Shown here: piece after piece, positions 5,529 to 36,662 of the stretch
Layout of the letters: each line of letters opens with the position of its first letter
Position numbering within the stretch: the stretch's first letter is position 1
Assembly: GCA_009840165.1 (NCBI GenBank)
Contig: VXOG01000036.1
Location: 38,373 to 102,372, forward strand
Length of the DNA stretch: 64,000 nt
Reading direction: 5' to 3'
Source: Chloroflexota bacterium
Lineage (GTDB): Bacteria; Chloroflexota; Dehalococcoidia; Lucifugimonadales; UBA3495
The notes under the pieces: generated by a model
Database searches by the model: none
What the model was told of the DNA's origin: nothing
The model's input: the letters and a program-made list of their open reading frames with translations, nothing else
Position numbers and translations under genes: made by a program

Positions 5529-5936
5529 TTACATTAGGATGGTGAAACCGGCCTGGGTGAAGTGGTGGTCGTTGGTTAGGGCTTCCCGGATGCCGTAGGC
5601 TTGCATGAGCTGGAAGCTGGCGCAATCCACGAAGCCCCACTCCTGATCAGGTCGGGAGTTGTACAAATCGACGGCGTTCCAGAATTGTTCGGAGGATTGA
5701 GGTGCTACTTTCACGTTGGTAGTGTGCTCAAAACCCCTGATCAAATTCACGGCTGCCAACCGCCCCTGCGCTCCATATCCGGACATAAAGTTCAACGTCT
5801 CCGCAAGGACCATCTCACTGGTCAGTATCCGACGGCTTGAGTATTCTCGATATAGAAGCCGCGCCACTTCGTGCCAAGCGTCCCTTGGGTTCAGAAAGGC
5901 AATCCAGAAGCAGGCATCGGCGAAAATTTCACGCAT
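5529..5936 (-). CDS. PIN-domain putative ribonuclease toxin
   Basis: [12 protein letters not shown], conserved acidic residues, [18 protein letters not shown]; overlaps upstream small ORF. Confidence 0.8.
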
Positions 5937-6355
5937 CAGTCATCCACTTTGGGCCGACCGTATAGGTAGTGATGCATATTTTTAGCACCGTCGGTAGGCA
6001 CGTTGTCCCAAGTTTCCTGAGGATATTTTTTGTGAATCTCGTTGAGAATATGCAGCAACGTAGGCATCTCCGGGTCTTCCGGTGGCAATACTCGCTCCGT
6101 TTTTTTCAAGTCAATACTGACAATTCGCTTCAGTCGGTCGTCGGCGAAATCTCCTTCACCGACGATTTTGAGTGCGAATTCACCCCGACGATGCAGGCTC
6201 TCCAAGGCTTCCCACTGCGAGCCCATAAAGTCAGCCCGCACTGTGGAGCCGTCTTCCAGCAGTAGTTTGTAGGAACCGTTGCGACCCGGATCCAGCTCCA
6301 TGGACTGGACCTCGGCGACTATTTCCACGGGGTAATGTCCGGTCTTTTGCGGCAT
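5936..6355 (-). CDS. Hypothetical protein, putative antitoxin partner of the PIN gene
   Basis: Stop/start overlap with the PIN gene at 5936; no family recognised. Confidence 0.5.
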   Translation of the reverse strand: MPQKTGHYPVEIVAEVQSMELDPGRNGSYKLLLEDGSTVRADFMGSQWEALESLHRRGEFALKIVGEGDFADDRLKRIVSIDLKKTERVLPPEDPEMPTLLHILNEIHKKYPQETWDNVPTDGAKNMHHYLYGRPKVDD

Positions 6356-6382
6356 GGCGGGCCGTCCTTAGAGGGCAGGTTG

Positions 6383-6826
6383 CTACTCCAATTCTACCAG
6401 GGGGTCGTTGGCGTTGACAGAATCGAGGGGCTGGACGAAGACGGTTTTCACCACGCCGTCCCGATGGGCCAGGATGCTCTGCTCCATCTTCATGGCCTCC
6501 ACTACGCACACCTCGTCGCCGGCGGATACGGCATCTCCGGGGCGAACCAGGATGGACATTACCCGGCCCGGCATGGGCGAACGCAGGATGTCGTCGTTGA
6601 TTGGGGCGCCGGATGGGGAAGCGACGGACCCTGATGGAGCGGGGGCTTCCGGTACTGCCAGGCCGCCAGTGGGCCGGCCCCGGCGAGGGGGAGTCGAGCC
6701 GGATGCGGCCTCGACCTCAACCTCAAAAACCTCGCCGTCAACGGTGACCTGAACGGGGGATTGGGTCAGGTCGCCAACCTCAACGGTGTACCACTGTTCG
6801 CCGATGCGTACTCTGATGGTCGTCAA
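6383..6826 (-). CDS. Biotin carboxyl carrier protein of an acyl-CoA carboxylase
   Basis: Biotinylation motif CVVEAMKMEQSI; probable TTG start at 6826, directly after the biotin carboxylase stop. Confidence 0.9.
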   Translation of the reverse strand: MTTIRVRIGEQWYTVEVGDLTQSPVQVTVDGEVFEVEVEAASGSTPPRRGRPTGGLAVPEAPAPSGSVASPSGAPINDDILRSPMPGRVMSILVRPGDAVSAGDEVCVVEAMKMEQSILAHRDGVVKTVFVQPLDSVNANDPLVELE

Positions 6827-17068: not shown

Positions 17069-17764
17069 CTAGAAATCCAGGTAGTCAGGCTCGGGCAGGC
17101 GGATGGCCTCCCCCGGCTGGGATTGGGATACCGCGGCCACAGAGCGGGAAAGCCACTGGATGGAGCCGTCCAGCTGGGCCATGTTGGTCAGTTCTTTGGG
17201 TTCCCGGGGCGCGAGCTTGGCCAGTTCCGACATATCGGCCGGCAGGTCCGGCGTGCCAATGCCGAAGCAGAAAAAGGCGATGTTGCGATTTTCCTCCATC
17301 TCTTTCAGGCGTTCCGCTGCTTTGGCCAGTTCGCTGGCATTGTCGTGTTCCGGATAGCCGTCGGTGAGGAAGTAGGCCAGGCTGCGGTAGTAGGCGACGC
17401 CGCCGTCCCGGTAGCTCTGCTTGCGAGCCTCGCTGATGTCCAGCGCCAGGTTGATGGCCTTCGAGTAGTTGGTGCCGCCTTTGACGGACAGCGTCGGCGG
17501 CTCAAAGTCGGTGCCGTTGGTAAAGTCCTGAACCACCCGGGCCTCGTGGTCGAACTCGATGATGGCCACGTCGGCCCGCAGGGCGGTTACGGAGTCATCC
17601 TTGATAATCTCACCGAACTTGACCAGGGCCTGGTTCACGGTCTGGATTTTTTGGCCGCCCATGGAGCCGGAGACGTCCAAAATCAGCACGATGGGACACC
17701 GCTGCTCCGGGTTTTCGGCGAACTCCGCCTGGTCGTACACGCCCACCGAGTCTTGTATGCTCAT
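17069..17764 (-). CDS. vWA-domain TerY-like protein (paralog 2)
   Basis: PIVLILDVSGSMGGQKIQTVNQALVKFGEIIKDD. Confidence 0.9.
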   Translation of the reverse strand: MSIQDSVGVYDQAEFAENPEQRCPIVLILDVSGSMGGQKIQTVNQALVKFGEIIKDDSVTALRADVAIIEFDHEARVVQDFTNGTDFEPPTLSVKGGTNYSKAINLALDISEARKQSYRDGGVAYYRSLAYFLTDGYPEHDNASELAKAAERLKEMEENRNIAFFCFGIGTPDLPADMSELAKLAPREPKELTNMAQLDGSIQWLSRSVAAVSQSQPGEAIRLPEPDYLDF

Positions 17765-17776
17765 CGCAGTTCCTCC

Positions 17777-18673
17777 TTAGAAATTCAGGTAATCGGGTTC
17801 CGGCAAGCGGATGCTGTCGCCGGGCTGGGATTTGGACACGGAGGTCACCGACCGGGAAAGCCACTGAATGGATCCTTCCAGCTGCGCCAAGTTGGTCAGT
17901 TCTTTGGGTTCCCGTGGCGCCAGCTTGGTAAGTTCGCCCATCGCGGTTTGCATGATCCCTTCCCTGACGCAACGCTCCACGAGCTCGGTTGCGCTGGTTC
18001 CCAGCATTTCGGCGACCTTGCCCACATCGAGACCCGTAGCGCTTTCGCCGGAACTGCCAAAGGCGCCCGCCGCATACAGGTCGGCCTCGCTGGACCCGAT
18101 CAGTTGGTAGAACTTTGGAACATTTTCGCCTCTGATCGTAAAATTTGGAACGCCGTCGCCGCGGTCGCTGCCGATGATGAAAGAGAAGAACGCTACTCCG
18201 CGATTCTCCTCTACCTGGGCCAGGCGTCGGGCCGTCAAGTCCAAATCAGCAGGGTCATCATCCGGCATGCCGTCGGTCAGAAAGTAGGCCAGGCTGCGGT
18301 AGTAGGCGACGCCGCCGTCCCGGTAGCTCTGCTTGCGGGCCTCGATGAGGTCCAGGGCGACGTTGATCGGTTTTGAAAAATTTGTTTCGCCCTTTGGCTC
18401 CAGCGCCGGGGGCTCAAAGTCGGCGCCGTTGGTGAAGTCGTACACCCGGGCATCGTCGTCAAATTCGATGATGGCCACGTCGGCCCGCAGGGCGGTAACG
18501 GAGTCTTCCCGGATGATGTCGCGGAACTTGACCAGGGCCTGGTTCAGGGTGTCAATCTTGGCGCCGGCCATGGAGCCGGACACGTCCAGGATCAGGACGA
18601 TAGGGCACCGCACTTCGGGGTTGTCGGCAAATTCCGACTGGTCGTACACGCCGATGGTGTCGCGGATGGTCAT
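17777..18673 (-). CDS. vWA-domain TerY-like protein (paralog 3, with internal insertion)
   Basis: PIVLILDVSGSMAGAKIDTLNQALVKF; about 75-aa extra segment before KLAPREPKELTNLAQLEGS. Confidence 0.9.
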   Translation of the reverse strand: MTIRDTIGVYDQSEFADNPEVRCPIVLILDVSGSMAGAKIDTLNQALVKFRDIIREDSVTALRADVAIIEFDDDARVYDFTNGADFEPPALEPKGETNFSKPINVALDLIEARKQSYRDGGVAYYRSLAYFLTDGMPDDDPADLDLTARRLAQVEENRGVAFFSFIIGSDRGDGVPNFTIRGENVPKFYQLIGSSEADLYAAGAFGSSGESATGLDVGKVAEMLGTSATELVERCVREGIMQTAMGELTKLAPREPKELTNLAQLEGSIQWLSRSVTSVSKSQPGDSIRLPEPDYLNF

Positions 18674-21775: not shown

Positions 21776-21985
21776 CTATTTTTGTGACCGGGGATGCCGC
21801 GCCCAACACGCCAGGAACCCCATCAATGCGCCCACCGCGCCTTTCAGCAGCCAATCCACCGCCGTGAGCAACTCTCGTTGAGCGGGCGCTAGAGTGGGAG
21901 ATGCCACCCATGCCTGCCAGATAAGACCGGAGGCGCACATCAAGATCAAACCAACCAATACGCCAACTATCACGTAGTTGTTCAC
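21776..21985 (-). CDS. Small membrane protein B1 (69 aa)
   Basis: TM segments; TLAPAQRELLTAVDWLLKGAVGALMGF resembles ORF 35412..35639; GTG start overlaps the stop of the upstream 55-aa ORF. Confidence 0.6.
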   Translation of the reverse strand: MNNYVIVGVLVGLILMCASGLIWQAWVASPTLAPAQRELLTAVDWLLKGAVGALMGFLACWARHPRSQK

Positions 21986-22149
21986 GCCTCAGCCTCGTTG
22001 CCCACGGAGCCTTGCTGCTCTGACGATGATCGTGAGCGACGCATCGAGCGATATGCGTCGAATCCGAGCCAAGCCAGTCCACCAAAGAACAAGATCATCC
22101 CCGCAGTCATCATGACCACCAACAGGATAAGAACCAGAACATCTTCCAT
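21982..22149 (-). CDS. Small membrane protein A1 (55 aa; below ORF-track cut-off)
   Basis: Translated by hand: MEDVLVLILLVVMMTAGMILFFGGLAWLGFDAYRSMRRSRSSSEQQGSVGNEAEA; GTGA overlap with B1; similar layout to A2 at 35645..35806. Confidence 0.55.
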   Translation of the reverse strand: MEDVLVLILLVVMMTAGMILFFGGLAWLGFDAYRSMRRSRSSSEQQGSVGNEAEA

Positions 22150-28309: not shown

Positions 28310-28481
28310 TTCGTGCGGACAGACTGTATATGCTTGCTTGTACGTATGACCTTTTGCGGTCAGGCGTTGATAGAAATTAGCCTCACCAAGTATCGCGTGA
28401 CGCCGGAGCGTTGGCAACCATGGATAAATGTCCAATTTAGTGGCGCTGCTGGTCGGCAGAGCTTCATTCCGGCTCCCATAC

Positions 28482-28578
28482 CGTCATTCCTGCGAAAGCA
28501 GGAATCCAGAAATGCCTTTCACGAGCAACGTTACGGTTTGAATGCGCTTCTGGATTCCGGCTCAAGGCCGGAATGACG
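28482..28578. repeat. MITE-like inverted-repeat element, copy 1
   Basis: CGTCATTCCtgcgaaagcaggaatccag ... ttctggattccggctcaaggccGGAATGACG. Confidence 0.75.
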
Positions 28579-28638
28579 TGAGAGAGCGCGGAATGACGTG
28601 AGAGAGCGCGGAATGATGTATGAGAGCGCGGAATGACG
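28569..28638. repeat. 20-bp tandem array extending from the element end
   Basis: cggaatgacg-tgagagagcg units, about 3.5 copies. Confidence 0.85.
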
Positions 28639-28675
28639 GCGCCGCAGCGAAACACGCTCGTCAAAGACTGAACGG

Positions 28676-29458
28676 CTACTGCGATGGTTCCTCTGCCTCG
28701 ACCGGGCGTACCATGATTTGCTGGGCGACGTTGTAGCCGATGGAGATGCTGTCCACTTCGGTCTGCACTTGCATGACGCCCAGGTAGGGCATCGCCTCCA
28801 GCAGGGTCATCGAGCGCCCCGGCACGAGCCTCGCGCCGTCGAGGAATTGCAGCAGTTGAGCGTCCTCTTCCGGCACCCGGTCAACTACGTATGATGCGCC
28901 GCTGGAAGCGTTGTCCAGCGTAACGGCTCCCGGTGTTGGGCCGGGCGAGCCTTTGCCGGGGATGGGCCAGCCGAAGGGCGAGTGAGTTGGATGGCCCAGC
29001 CGCTCCATGAGCTTCGCCTCCAGCGCCGGCGACATTCCGTGCTCCAGCTGGTGGGCTTCAATGTGAGCCTCATGGAGTTCCATGCCCAAAAGCCGCACCA
29101 CCAGCCACTCGGCCAGACGGTGGCGGCGGGCGATGCTTTCGCCCTCTTTTGTGCCCCGGTCGGTGAGGCGGATCCTCTTGTCGCTGCCGATGTCCACGAG
29201 GCCCTGCTTTTCCATCCGGCGCAGCATACCGGCCACCGATGGCACGGAGGTTCCCAGACCTTCGGTGGGCGGCAGTTGCCGCAGCGCTTCGGTCAACCGG
29301 GTCAGCGTGGGTACTTCGGAGTCCTCCCACATCTTGTAAAGCGACAGGAGGTAGTTCTCCGTTACCGGCGAAAGGCGTTCGGCCGTGTTGGACGCCTGGG
29401 TTTGAGCGCCGGCGTCAGCTCTGGATTTGCGGGGACGTGCCACGTCTATTCTCAGCAC
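28676..29458 (-). CDS. DtxR/MntR-family metal-dependent regulator
   Basis: SPVTENYLLSLYKMWED..., VAGMLRRMEKQGLVDIGSDKRIRLTDRGTKEGESIARRHRLAEWLVVRLLGM, EAHQLEHGMS. Confidence 0.88.
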   Translation of the reverse strand: MLRIDVARPRKSRADAGAQTQASNTAERLSPVTENYLLSLYKMWEDSEVPTLTRLTEALRQLPPTEGLGTSVPSVAGMLRRMEKQGLVDIGSDKRIRLTDRGTKEGESIARRHRLAEWLVVRLLGMELHEAHIEAHQLEHGMSPALEAKLMERLGHPTHSPFGWPIPGKGSPGPTPGAVTLDNASSGASYVVDRVPEEDAQLLQFLDGARLVPGRSMTLLEAMPYLGVMQVQTEVDSISIGYNVAQQIMVRPVEAEEPSQ

Positions 29459-29531
29459 AATTGGAGGATCGTGCCGCGATTATACCCTAAAGAAGAGGAG
29501 ATTGCCCGGCCCTCCCGGTTTTCCAACCCTA

Positions 29532-29653
29532 CGTCATTCCCGCGAAAGCGGGAATCCAGGAACTCCTGTTGCCAAGCAAGGTTGCAGTCTGGACATGCTT
29601 CTGGATTCCGGATCAAAGCCTGCCCCGTACTCGATACGGGGTCCCGAATGACG
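29532..29653. repeat. MITE-like inverted-repeat element, copy 2
   Basis: cgtcattcccgcgaaagcgggaatccagg ... cttctggattccgg ... cccgaatgacg; internal similarity to copy 1. Confidence 0.7.
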
Positions 29654-31048: not shown

Positions 31049-34000
31049 ATGATGAAAAACGCCATCGTCAGCGCCACGATAGTACGGTTGGTTCAAGATC
31101 ATCGGCGGGGGACGGTTGTCATAGCGGTGGTGTTGGTAGCGGTATTGGCCGCGCTGCTGGCCCTCGGCGTCTCAGAACGTTCTGCAACCGCACAGTCGGA
31201 GCCGGAAACCGTCGGGCGAGTCACCGGCCTGACCGCCACGGCCGAAGGCCAATCGCCCGGCACGGTCCATCTCACCTGGAACGCCGCCGAAAACGCGCAG
31301 GTCTATTTCGTCCTCTTCGTCAAAGCAGATGACTTGGCGTCCGGGAACTACGCAGGTGTCCAAATGCGCGCGTTCAACGAGACAGAGGCAACGATAGACG
31401 GGCTGGAGGCTGGCGCGTCGTACCACTTCATCGCTAGGGGAATGCGTTACAACATCAGTACCTTTAAGCACGTATGGGGTGATGATTGGTCAAGCTTGAC
31501 GACAGCTACAGCGGCGGGCGTTGCCTCCGGGAAGGCGCCGCCGCCGGACGTTTCACAACCCATGCCGGTTGAGCCGCAAACGGTTGGGGTGGTCACCGGC
31601 TTGACCGCCATTACCGACGGGCAGCCGCCCGGCACAGTTCAGCTCACTTGGAACGCAGCTGAAAACGCGCAGGTCTATCTTGTCCTCTTCGTTAAGGCAG
31701 ATGACTTGGCGTCCGGGAACTACGCAGGCGTCCAAATGCGCGTGTTCAACGAGACGGAGGCAACGATAGATGGGTTGGAGGCCGGCGCGTCGTACCACTT
31801 CATCGCTAGAGGGTTGCGTTACAACATCAGTACCTTCAAGGACATATGGGGTGATGATTGGTCAGGCTTGACTACGGCTATATTGTCCGCCGAGCCGAAG
31901 GTTCCTCTCTCCGAGCTTGAGCATTGGGACCGACTGGAAAGGGACAAACCGGCGTCGGCAAATCAACTCAAAGCGCTGCCCTGGGTTGCCGACGGTATAG
32001 ACGAAACCGAGAGCGATGCCGCTCAACGACTGGTGGATCTGGCCGTGTGGTGGCCGGACACGTTCAACGCGCTGCTGCAAAAGCAGTGGATTCAGGACAC
32101 GATTACCCGCGATGAAGGCACAGTGATCGAGTACAGCTATCGAATTACGCGAGCATATAGTGACGAAGCGATGCGGTTGCTGGTTTCCGAAGTGGTCGTT
32201 GCGCTCTTGGATATGCCCTTCCTTGACAGCGTGGAGAGTGCGGATGCCCTGGCGGTGTGGTCCCTGTATATTCTGGCGCACAGGGACGTTGCGACTTTTC
32301 TGGAAATAATGTCTCACCCAAAGATCAGCGACGGCATCACAGATGAAGAAGCCAAAATCGTAGTCTTGCTATGGGAAGCGAACGACCGGAATCAGGCGTC
32401 GCTTCAGACTCTGCTGGACGGACTGGATGGAACGGGCGGCGTGTATAAAGAGGAACGCACCACCAACTTGCCGCACTCCGGCGAAGTGCTGCTGGCAATC
32501 ATCAGATTCCGCGACAATAGTAATGCCAACATGGATTATCTTGAGCGCGCCGCGCGGAACGTTGAAGAGTTCATGGAGGAGCCGTTGGGCAGCAAATACG
32601 TCGCCTGGTACTTCGGCGACGCAATCGGAGGGCATCATGCCGGTACGCACATAACCTCGGAGCCGAGCCACGACGACGTGAACCACCCCTATTGGCAAGA
32701 TACGCCGGCGCATATCGCCCACGAGGTAGGCCATTACTATTGGCGTGACAGTAAGAGGTGGATCAGTGAAGGCGGAGCAGAGTTCGTCTCGGCAATCTCA
32801 GAGCATGAGCGCATTGGCCGTCCCCTTGAACCTTTCAGAACTCCCTGCGCCGAATTCCAAGCCATCAAAGATATAGTGCCTGGAGGTCTTCCCCATGCTA
32901 GTTGCGACTATTACTTGGGCAGTCAGCTGTTCCTGGACCTTTACCACGCCCTCGGCGAAGAAACCTTCCGCCAGAGGTTCCGCAACCTATACCTAAAGCG
33001 GTTGCGGGACGACCCCAACGACGACTGCGAAGGCACCCGCCTGGATATCTGCCACGTGGAAGCGGCGTTCAAGGCCGGCGCGTCCGACGACGTGATCGCC
33101 AGGGTGGATGAGGTTATCGACCGTTGGTATCACGGCATTGGCGCCGAGGAGCCGCAGATTCCGGGTCGAGAAGACCTTTATCAGCCCATACAGCCGCCGG
33201 AGCACATGGCATATATCTGGTGGGAATGGAACCCAGACCAGGATCATTTCACAGAGATGGTTACCGACTTCACCATCCACAACGATGTGGGAGATTGGTC
33301 GGATGATCACGGGCTCTACTTTATGGTGAGTAATACCTCTATATCAGATGTAGGGCTCTATTTCGGTTTGCAGACCGACAGCCATGCGCCAGAGCCTCCA
33401 TATCGGCGCGGAAAAGCGGTGATCTTCTCCAGGTGGGAGACTGACCAACTGTCCGACGCGCGATGGGACGAGACGAACGGCTGGTATGAGTTGGGGAAAC
33501 ATGAAGGAGGCTTTTTGGGAGTCCGGCGGTCTTATGCCTGGGGCGCGGGAGACTATCGTATCCGGATTGCTCCCGACGGCCTGGACACAGACGGAGAATG
33601 GTTTGGCCTGTGGATTACAGACCTGGCCACCAATGAAACCACCTGGATTGGGTCGCTGAAGTTTCCGCTGTTAAATGGCGTCGCGCAAATCAGCCCAAGC
33701 TCGTACTCAACACTTGAGATCTACGGCAACCCACCGATCCGGCCCATCGACATTCCTCAATGGCACGTCAGCATCAAAAGGACATTGGGAGATAATGTGC
33801 CGTCAGTCCGAGGACTTCCCGGCTACGGGTTAACTAGCGACAGCACTGTTCGGAACTCCGAGGTCAGATACGACCCGGAGGAAGACGCGGTACATCTTCA
33901 GGTGGGTGGCACTACCGAGCGCAAGACTCCTGCCACGGGGCATATAGACTTCAAGCCGCTCGCCACCCTCAACGACCTAGAACGCGCCGACCGTCTGGAA

Positions 34001-35317
34001 CCGGCGCAGGCCAACCAACTGAATGCGCTCCCATGGATCGCCGACGGCATCGACTACACCGAGCGCGAGACCGCCCAGACGCTGATCGACGCCGCCAACC
34101 ACTACCCCGACACGTTCAGCGCTTTGCTGCAAAAGCCCTGGGCTACGGACCATGACCTTACCGCCGCTGAATCCAGCGTGATTTATGGGATACGCTGGAC
34201 TGCCCGCCGGGACGAGGCATCCGCTCTCGCAATACTCGACATGCCCTTCCTGGAGACGCTGGAATTTGATGACTCTCTGGCGGTACTGGCGCTCTACAGG
34301 CTGGCGAGATACTCAGATGATGGCAGATTTAAAGTCCTGATGGAGCATCCGACTCTGGAAAGCGGCATCACCGATGACCTCACCACCCTGGTGGCGGCGG
34401 CAGGCACCATCAGGGTGGCCGATGAGGTGGAGCGGATGCTGAATCCCGGCTACGCCAATATCGAGGTCCATACCGGACAGACGGAACTCACTCCGGAGCT
34501 CAAGATCAGCATCGTCCGAACCCACAGCGAACCCCGGCCCGAAACCATGCCGGAGCTGGTGCGCATCGCGGAACTGCTGGAGAGCACCATGCAGGTCCCC
34601 TTGCCCAAACCCCACATGATCTTCGTGGTCAGCGACTGGGCAGTCTCAGCGTCGAGCAGAGGCATCTCGCAAGGGAAGCGATACGACTTCGCATATGGCC
34701 TTCGTGAAGACCGGGAGGATACGCAGCGATTCACTCGCGAATACGCCACCGACCGGCCCATGCTTCCGTCGGTGATGATCCACGAGATTGGGCACGACTA
34801 CTTCGGCAACGAGCTGAAGTCGTGGCTCAACCACACTCCGGTCAAGAACTTCGAGTACGTGTACCGACTGGACGGCAGAGACCCTTCCGATGTTCCTGAA
34901 ATGGTGCTGAACACCATCCACCAGCGAAGCGGCTGTGAGGCCCGCAATATCCAGCACCTGGAAGAGATGAATCCTCCCAGCAGCGACCGGACTAATAGCC
35001 TGTGTCACCACTATCTGGGTTACTGGATGGGTCGGGAGTTGCTGGAGGCCGTGGGCCAGGAGGAATACTTTGCGAGAATGCGGAGACTCTATCACCGGAA
35101 GGAAGAGTTGGTGGCAGAGGGCATAGACCCGGGGATCGCCGAAATCAGGGAGCTGTTCCCTGACCAGCTCGATATCGTGGAACACTATTGGTCGGGCGAC
35201 GTAGGCAACCCTGAGGAGCAATACTGGGGCGGGTTGGCAAGTTTGGCAGGGTACCCGATGGACCACACATTCGGCTTCGGCTGCTGCTGCGCCGGATGTA
35301 TGCCGGTCGATGCCTAA
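31049..35317 (+). CDS. Large secreted/anchored protein: TM, two FN3 domains, two HExxH metallopeptidase-like modules
   Basis: N-terminal TM (GTVVIAVVLVAVLAALLALGV); tandem VTGLTA..GTV.LTWNAAENAQVY; HEVGHYYW...WISEGGAEF and HEIGHDYF; repeated ANQL.ALPW.ADGID modules. Confidence 0.8.
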   Translation: MMKNAIVSATIVRLVQDHRRGTVVIAVVLVAVLAALLALGVSERSATAQSEPETVGRVTGLTATAEGQSPGTVHLTWNAAENAQVYFVLFVKADDLASGNYAGVQMRAFNETEATIDGLEAGASYHFIARGMRYNISTFKHVWGDDWSSLTTATAAGVASGKAPPPDVSQPMPVEPQTVGVVTGLTAITDGQPPGTVQLTWNAAENAQVYLVLFVKADDLASGNYAGVQMRVFNETEATIDGLEAGASYHFIARGLRYNISTFKDIWGDDWSGLTTAILSAEPKVPLSELEHWDRLERDKPASANQLKALPWVADGIDETESDAAQRLVDLAVWWPDTFNALLQKQWIQDTITRDEGTVIEYSYRITRAYSDEAMRLLVSEVVVALLDMPFLDSVESADALAVWSLYILAHRDVATFLEIMSHPKISDGITDEEAKIVVLLWEANDRNQASLQTLLDGLDGTGGVYKEERTTNLPHSGEVLLAIIRFRDNSNANMDYLERAARNVEEFMEEPLGSKYVAWYFGDAIGGHHAGTHITSEPSHDDVNHPYWQDTPAHIAHEVGHYYWRDSKRWISEGGAEFVSAISEHERIGRPLEPFRTPCAEFQAIKDIVPGGLPHASCDYYLGSQLFLDLYHALGEETFRQRFRNLYLKRLRDDPNDDCEGTRLDICHVEAAFKAGASDDVIARVDEVIDRWYHGIGAEEPQIPGREDLYQPIQPPEHMAYIWWEWNPDQDHFTEMVTDFTIHNDVGDWSDDHGLYFMVSNTSISDVGLYFGLQTDSHAPEPPYRRGKAVIFSRWETDQLSDARWDETNGWYELGKHEGGFLGVRRSYAWGAGDYRIRIAPDGLDTDGEWFGLWITDLATNETTWIGSLKFPLLNGVAQISPSSYSTLEIYGNPPIRPIDIPQWHVSIKRTLGDNVPSVRGLPGYGLTSDSTVRNSEVRYDPEEDAVHLQVGGTTERKTPATGHIDFKPLATLNDLERADRLEPAQANQLNALPWIADGIDYTERETAQTLIDAANHYPDTFSALLQKPWATDHDLTAAESSVIYGIRWTARRDEASALAILDMPFLETLEFDDSLAVLALYRLARYSDDGRFKVLMEHPTLESGITDDLTTLVAAAGTIRVADEVERMLNPGYANIEVHTGQTELTPELKISIVRTHSEPRPETMPELVRIAELLESTMQVPLPKPHMIFVVSDWAVSASSRGISQGKRYDFAYGLREDREDTQRFTREYATDRPMLPSVMIHEIGHDYFGNELKSWLNHTPVKNFEYVYRLDGRDPSDVPEMVLNTIHQRSGCEARNIQHLEEMNPPSSDRTNSLCHHYLGYWMGRELLEAVGQEEYFARMRRLYHRKEELVAEGIDPGIAEIRELFPDQLDIVEHYWSGDVGNPEEQYWGGLASLAGYPMDHTFGFGCCCAGCMPVDA
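31190..31880 (+). repeat. Tandem duplication of the FN3-coding segment (about 372-bp period)
   Basis: 31190-31508 and 31562-31880 near-identical, e.g. gatgacttggcgtccgggaactacgcagg in both. Confidence 0.9.
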
Positions 35318-35379
35318 CCCGGCTTCTCCCCATGGTGCAGCGCCACTCCTCCCATCCCCAGGCGGCGGTAGCCTACGTT
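35314..35379. repeat. 66-bp direct repeat, copy 1 (detached ubiE 3' end)
   Basis: 62/66 identity to 35896-35961; reverse strand encodes NVGYRRLGMGGVALHHGEKPG*. Confidence 0.9.
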
Positions 35380-35411
35380 CAAGAGGTTGTGCTGTGAGCG
35401 TGAGCCTTTCC

Positions 35412-35639
35412 CTATTTGGCGTCTTTCCTGCCCGCCAGTCCCGCACCGCCGGCGAAACCCAGGATCGCGCCGACGGACGCTTTGACCAGCCAGTCCGCTA
35501 TGTCGATGAGCCGGGTCTGCGCCAGAGTGAGTTGATCAGTGGGAACATCTGAGAGCCACGCTAGTGTGCCGATCCCCAGGACAGTCAACATCAGCAACGC
35601 AGCGAATATCCATAGCGCGGGTACTTTGCCGTGGCTCAT
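35412..35639 (-). CDS. Small membrane protein B2 (75 aa)
   Basis: Resembles B1: QLTLAQTRLIDIADWLVKASVGAILGF. Confidence 0.6.
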   Translation of the reverse strand: MSHGKVPALWIFAALLMLTVLGIGTLAWLSDVPTDQLTLAQTRLIDIADWLVKASVGAILGFAGGAGLAGRKDAK

Positions 35640-35644
35640 GTCGG

Positions 35645-35806
35645 CTATGCGCCTTGGGCTTGGCCACCCGACGCGCCACTGGAGTTCGCTTTTTTCGACC
35701 TCTGGCGATACCAGTTAATGATGCCTACAATGCACACCAAGAATCCCAGGCCGCCAATGCACATCATCACCAAGCCAGCCATTGACACCAACTCTCCCCC
35801 TACCAT
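35645..35806 (-). CDS. Small membrane protein A2 (53 aa; below ORF-track cut-off)
   Basis: Translated by hand: MVGGELVSMAGLVMMCIGGLGFLVCIVGIINWYRQRSKKANSSGASGGQAQGA; same position relative to B2 as A1 to B1. Confidence 0.5.
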   Translation of the reverse strand: MVGGELVSMAGLVMMCIGGLGFLVCIVGIINWYRQRSKKANSSGASGGQAQGA

Positions 35807-35895
35807 AGCAGCCTCCAAGTACGATTATTTGCACTGCGCGTTTGCATTGATGTTAGCACATTCTTGCCGGCCCCAAGGGGAATTCTTGTGTACAA

Positions 35896-35961
35896 CTAAC
35901 CCGGCTTCTCCCCGTAGTGCAGCGCGACTCCTCCCATCCCGAGGCGGCGGTAGCCTACGTT
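35896..35961. repeat. 66-bp direct repeat, copy 2 (3' end of ubiE)
   Basis: Same orientation as 35314-35379. Confidence 0.9.
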
Positions 35962-36618
35962 GACCAGACCGGCCTGTCGGTACACGTCGGCGAGGCCCTC
36001 GGCGGTGAGGAAGTAGTCCACGCTGCTGGGCAGGTAGGTATAAGCAGTGCGGTCGCCGGCCACCAACTGACCCATCAGCGGCACGAATCGGTGGAAGTAC
36101 AGGCGGCCCAGCGCGGCGCGAATACCCGGCGGCATGGGCGTCAGTTCCAGCGTGGTGACCCGCCCGCCGGGCGACACCACCCTGGCCATCTCCGCGATGG
36201 CCGCCGGCACGTCCGCCATGTTGCGCAGGCTGAACCCGGCGGTGGCGCAGACGAAAGTGCTGTCAGGGAAGGGGAGTTGCAGCGCGTCGCCCATCGCGAA
36301 AGACGTAGAAGCCGCGGTTTTGTCGCTTGCTGCCGGCTTGTCCGCCGCGATGGTCAGCATCTCCGATAGTAGGTCAACGCCGACGGCGCGGTCGATGCCC
36401 GGGCAGCGCGCCAGAGCGAATGCCAGGTCGCCCGTGCCGGTGGCAACGTCCAGCGCAGCGCCGTGCAGCCCGGCGGCGGTGAACCGCGCCGTCTCACGCT
36501 TCCAGCGGTGATGCAGCCCGCCGGTCATCAGCGAGTTCATCAGGTCGTAGCGCGGCGAAATGCGGGCGAACATCTCCGCCACGTACTGCCGCTTGTCGTC
36601 GCCGCGCAGGTGAGCCAT
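35896..36618 (-). CDS. ubiE: Demethylmenaquinone/ubiquinone methyltransferase UbiE/MenG
   Basis: MAHLRGDDKRQYVAEMFARISPRYDLMNSLMTGGLHHRWKRETA; LDVATGTGDLAFAL. Confidence 0.93.
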   Translation of the reverse strand: MAHLRGDDKRQYVAEMFARISPRYDLMNSLMTGGLHHRWKRETARFTAAGLHGAALDVATGTGDLAFALARCPGIDRAVGVDLLSEMLTIAADKPAASDKTAASTSFAMGDALQLPFPDSTFVCATAGFSLRNMADVPAAIAEMARVVSPGGRVTTLELTPMPPGIRAALGRLYFHRFVPLMGQLVAGDRTAYTYLPSSVDYFLTAEGLADVYRQAGLVNVGYRRLGMGGVALHYGEKPG

Positions 36619-36662
36619 GGCGCTAACGCTCCACACCCGTCATTCTGCAACGCCCTACAACT

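Follow-up and report, generated by a model that had tools for sequence, protein, structure and literature searches.

Gene content of the A2B2 locus

The window analysed here, a stretch of 64,000 nucleotides, is part of contig C36 of a 3.76 Mb genome assembled in 115 contigs. Its minus strand encodes two small adjacent genes, A2 (35645-35806, 53 amino acids), preceded by a GGAG sequence, and B2 (35412-35639, 75 amino acids), with 5 nt between the A2 stop codon and the B2 ATG. Homologous A genes are found upstream of B elsewhere as well. The A2 protein has one transmembrane helix, followed by a basic segment and then a Ser/Gly-rich C-terminal tail, and was modelled by AlphaFold2 as a single helix (residues 3-44, pLDDT 79.8). 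B2 is predicted to form a helical hairpin, in which a transmembrane helix (residues 5-29) is followed by a long helix (residues 39-74) carrying the motif LTxAQ..L..ADW..K..VGAILGF; the AlphaFold2 model consists of these two helices (mean pLDDT 88.8). A second pair on the minus strand, A1 (21982-22149, 55 amino acids) and B1 (21776-21985, 69 amino acids), overlaps by 4 nt. A2 and B2 are present where the first-pass annotation had placed them, and A1 and B1 exist as well. That annotation overlooked the minus-strand orientation, the direct repeat of the ubiE 3' end described below, and the fact that A1B1 has stable orthologues in four other species.

A2 and B2 fill the space between an intact gene and a copy of that gene's 3' end. 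The intact neighbour is a ubiE/menG-like methyltransferase gene (35896-36636, minus strand, stop codon at 35896), which we take to be ubiE from its sequence and prior knowledge, without a family search. Its 3' end including the stop codon (35896-35961, minus strand) forms one arm of a 66-bp direct repeat. The other arm is a 66-bp copy (35314-35379, minus strand), which is 94% identical and also ends at the stop codon. The two arms differ at four positions, three of which are third codon positions. Between them lies a 516-bp insert (35380-35895, no strand assigned) composed of the upstream region, A2, B2 and about 32 bp, with a GC content of 57% versus 68% in ubiE. The ubiE tail copy also contains the stop codon of a large ORF on the plus strand (31049-35317, 1422 amino acids), which is of Fn3 type and metallopeptidase-like by sequence reading. 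This ORF has an internal direct repeat of 310 bp with 87% identity, corresponding to Fn3-like modules (31199-31880).

Promoter, terminator and Rfam scans of the A2B2 locus returned nothing, Rfam matches being sub-threshold only, and no inverted repeats were found in 35300-35990. Other repeats in the window include a 161-bp 3'-end repeat (83% identity) common to two adjacent ORFs that are VWA-like by sequence reading (17069-18673), an apparent tandem duplication, as well as intergenic REP-like repeats at 28400-28664 and 29427-29651 (translation SFPRKRESR / HSRESGNP).

The A-B gene family

The first-pass annotation had described the two loci as copies of one cassette. For B this held beyond what shuffled membrane sequence yields, as the local alignment of B1 and B2 scored 87, whereas none of 5000 locally shuffled sequences scored above 72 (p = 0.0002). 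For A it did not hold in pairwise comparison, where A1 and A2 scored 34, within the range of local shuffles (p = 0.48); the two are linked only by a profile comparison of two A groups (hhalign probability 95.5), in which a transmembrane bias is possible. The pairwise result for A is what might be expected if A and B were chance ORFs whose transmembrane resemblance is driven by composition. This reading has a negligible probability and is refuted by dN/dS values in orthologue sets of related genomes (B, 0.13-0.36; A, 0.10-0.37), by the linkage of A to B, and by B profile matches at an E-value of 1e-27 in several Chloroflexota families. A2 and B2 are members of a real gene family.

The pairing, whose absence elsewhere had been set as grounds for dropping the first-pass annotation, recurs. 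A lies directly upstream of B at all 24 intact loci of the genus and at 40 of the 44 loci overall, with four loci containing B and no recognisable A. At two loci (L152 and L077), the ORFs preceding the B homologues are similar to one another (..LxEAVLxP..S.IDKxTGxxV..) and are not A, so B is possibly paired with a different partner there. Using a 27-row B profile, we identified one to five matches per genome, up to five of them divergent, in 13 of the 14 genomes of the genus. In the order, 23 of 250 genomes had a match, as had nine of 399 genomes drawn from the phylum, namely the genome of the window and eight of one other genus. The related named genomes are metagenome-assembled Chloroflexota/Dehalococcoidia, and their bin names suggest sponge hosts. 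Decayed A-B copies in genomes G001, G006 and G012 show that loss of the pair is tolerated; a truncated B gene beside an intact A also occurs.

None of the four proteins (A2, B2, A1 and B1) was recognised by a Pfam model above cut-off or by NCBIfam, including any known toxin or antitoxin family, and neither A nor B matched PHROGs. The 27 B members scanned with PADLOC (B only) matched no described defence protein. A profile of an 11-row B subset, queried against phage, plasmid and viral collections, found no relatives in viral contigs or plasmids and one chance-level match in the phage collection. A fold search of B returned meaningless helical matches only. Together with the strict linkage, these searches bear out the earlier description of an undescribed paired unit: A-B is an unnamed gene family, described in none of the libraries we searched.

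Insertions behind gene 3' ends

The two loci of the window differ in history. An A1B1 orthologue occupies the same position in the opp operon in G002, G005, G008 and G013 (five species with its own). A1B1 is inherited in place, in contrast to A2B2. Each of the 13 other genomes of the genus has a single ubiE 3' end. Downstream of ubiE the relatives lack synteny and their flanks differ from one another, hence there is no exact empty ubiE site among them; G007 also has a related peptidase-like gene next to ubiE.

Similar arrangements were found at other genes, whose names, like those of the cargo, were assigned by sequence reading except for McrBC, MmeI, DNA methyltransferases and KAP. In G010, the order at acs is native flank, a 138-bp copy of the acs tail, A-B, a small ORF and acs. 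In G004, the native flank is followed by a 128-bp copy, a Uma2-like gene and A-B, where the contig ends. Another G004 contig (L165, C36, 4110-5934) contains an 82-bp acs 3'-end copy, a DUF262/GmrSD-like gene, type IV restriction-like by sequence reading, and acs. G013 and G001 have empty acs sites, with acs and the native flank immediately adjacent. In G012 and G009, where A-B lies close to acs together with an MmeI-like gene, there is no tail copy. The acs copies of G010 have two internal differences, both synonymous, and the distal copy ends in TAG, as in G013, G001 and G004, with TAA in the intact gene. This pattern suggests the native tail in the distal copy and a donor origin for the end of the gene.

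Two further cases in G010 concern cargo other than A-B. At clpB (L195, C1:202654-210854, 5816-6576), a 145-bp 3'-end copy accompanies an insert of 471 bp whose product is a HigA/VapI-like HTH antitoxin; we saw no toxin alongside it there. At nuoN (C1, ~3018600-3019190), a 76-bp copy accompanies an insert of 481 bp, which codes for a protein resembling retroviral-type aspartic proteases. The tail copies measure 66 bp (ubiE), 76 bp (nuoN), 82, 128 and 138 bp (acs) and 145 bp (clpB); all end at the stop codon beside the native flank, and their inner ends vary. Most A-B loci have no 3'-end copy. As a background for this gene-tail signature, 800 kb of G010 yielded one three-prime and one five-prime case, and 148 kb of random windows yielded one case (clpB). 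At one more locus (L046, 1113-2526, G001:C38), an RRXRR/HNH ORF, IscB-like by sequence reading, adjoins an A-B pair, and a 127-bp direct repeat with 80% identity lies on both sides of the pair and this ORF.

A-B is laterally gained accessory cargo, which does not imply self-movement. Within Chloroflexota, lateral transfer may have led to both gains and losses of the pair, with A2B2 entering directly 3' of the ubiE stop codon. One end would have been formed by homologous recombination in ubiE and the other by an illegitimate junction 66 bp inside the gene, a route that would keep ubiE intact and leave a second copy of its tail behind. Tail copies that end at the stop codon and vary at their inner ends are predicted by one-sided homologous plus illegitimate recombination, unlike by an integrase or transposon, and the third-position differences at ubiE and the synonymous ones at acs in G010 are what one would expect had one of the two ends come from a donor allele. 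A shared integrase leaves a fixed core, and a transposon leaves inverted repeats and a fixed duplication. From the sequence architecture, we infer that one-sided homologous plus illegitimate recombination is a better fit than either transposition or a single shared integrase. Homology-facilitated illegitimate recombination is a process defined in PMC3240628, and such one-sided homologous integration would likewise produce an intact gene, new DNA after its stop codon and a tail copy of variable length beside the native flank. That process is known from laboratory transformation and conjugation, whereas here it would be read from the architecture. At acs, the native flank follows the distal copy and empty sites are present.

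Duplicated gene 3' ends around inserts are classic for integrase islands, and this, along with the empty and filled acs sites, would suit a site-specific integrase that acts in trans, in which case the attL and attR of integrase-less elements would be represented by the duplicated tails. Such cis-mobilizable islands (CIMEs, a term used in PMC5704250) resemble the present loci in carrying short cargo between duplicated gene 3' ends, with no integrase inside. They have a constant att core, whereas copy lengths and target genes vary here. Direct repeats of the 3' end lie at both ends of the inserts, but the acs repeats have three lengths and three inner ends, so there is no fixed core; the targets ubiE, acs, clpB and nuoN are unrelated, and no integrase was found in the 0.5-2 kb inserts examined. 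We regard an integrase in trans as unlikely. A self-mobile transposon, a MITE or a holin-bearing phage remnant is highly improbable. The small, AT-richer insert between direct repeats would be in keeping with such an element, but the region contains no inverted repeats, the duplications range from 66 to 145 bp instead of being fixed, and no relative of B turned up in plasmids or viral contigs, nor in phages beyond one chance-level match, and no PHROG model matched. We rejected the transposon/MITE reading on the first two grounds. The mobile unit proposed in the first-pass annotation survives in a passive sense only, supported by the A2B2 insertion at ubiE and by related A-B pairs at acs in two sister species, two more of which have the site empty; recombinase, terminal inverted repeats and a fixed target duplication are all lacking, and A1B1 stayed in place.

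The duplicated tail, the cargo located exactly after the stop codon and the empty sites in sister species make a simple signature that can be scanned for, and may indicate how uncultured Chloroflexota gain small accessory or defence genes without an evident integrase. If one-sided recombination is the true route, accessory genes would be loaded behind essential genes independently of integrases.

Possible functions of the A-B pair

A, with its single transmembrane helix and basic tail, and B, with its two-helix hairpin, would be two small membrane proteins with coupled translation, which probably assemble into one hetero-oligomeric complex. This complex might serve as a small membrane effector in phage defence or stress, the weakest step of the proposal. 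Taken jointly, a coupled A-B membrane pair carried as lateral cargo, entering one-sidedly after ubiE and acting as a defence or stress effector is our best explanation, a tentative one that falls somewhat short of probable. A broader proposal appears rather doubtful, namely that A and B make up a new two-component membrane effector system, in defence or addiction, spread through sponge-associated Chloroflexota by recurrent, integrase-independent micro-insertions. Each of these would replace the 3' end of a housekeeping gene and bring 0.5-2 kb of accessory cargo, the old tail staying behind.

Small membrane proteins of bacteria often serve as accessory subunits or modulators, and A and B could act in this way on a resident membrane complex such as a transporter, a protease or a respiratory enzyme, with no role in defence or addiction. 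Their small size, the purifying selection and the stable position of A1B1 within the opp operon in five species would agree with this. The partner gene, however, is not constant across contexts (acs, ubiE, opp, lipA, McrBC), and genomes with up to five divergent B matches, as well as the decayed copies, also argue against an accessory subunit, which we judge improbable. The addiction-like unit suggested in the first-pass annotation would be a toxin-antitoxin pair in which one small membrane protein is toxic and the other neutralises it. Like bicistronic toxin-antitoxin modules, A and B are two small, adjacent, co-translated genes with strict linkage, a patchy distribution, multiple copies and a cargo-like insertion, and a HigA-like antitoxin was inserted at clpB in the same mode. 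They differ in that both products are membrane proteins, without a DNA-binding antitoxin. We saw no candidate for a cytoplasmic antitoxin or, given the sub-threshold Rfam matches, for an antisense RNA; loci with B alone, a truncated B beside an intact A and decayed pairs are moreover tolerated, making an addiction pair quite unlikely.

Phage holins and lysis pairs are likewise small proteins of one or two transmembrane segments with a charged tail, but A-B has no phage context and no phage relatives were found. The earlier holin-like suggestion was rejected, as was a phage origin, on the lack of B relatives in phages, plasmids and viral contigs and of any PHROG match. Compared with an addiction pair and with an accessory subunit, we weakly favour a two-component membrane effector. 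As the family is conserved and recurrent in nearly all genomes of the genus, one expression experiment would open the whole of it.

Some A-B loci adjoin restriction genes, including McrBC-like and MmeI-like genes and methyltransferases, and KAP genes are also among the neighbours. Neighbours of PADLOC type were estimated from family tables at ~7 of 18 A-B loci versus ~3 of 18 random windows, a suggestive difference that falls short of significance, since restriction genes are abundant throughout these genomes. Enrichment of restriction-type genes in sponge symbionts is mentioned in PMC5099237 and PMC5649159. Across the genus, restriction matches comprised 20 MmeI (above 90 bits) and 21 McrBC. 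Six of the 41 matches, three MmeI and three McrC from families picked after the fact, were located within 2 kb of an A-B pair.
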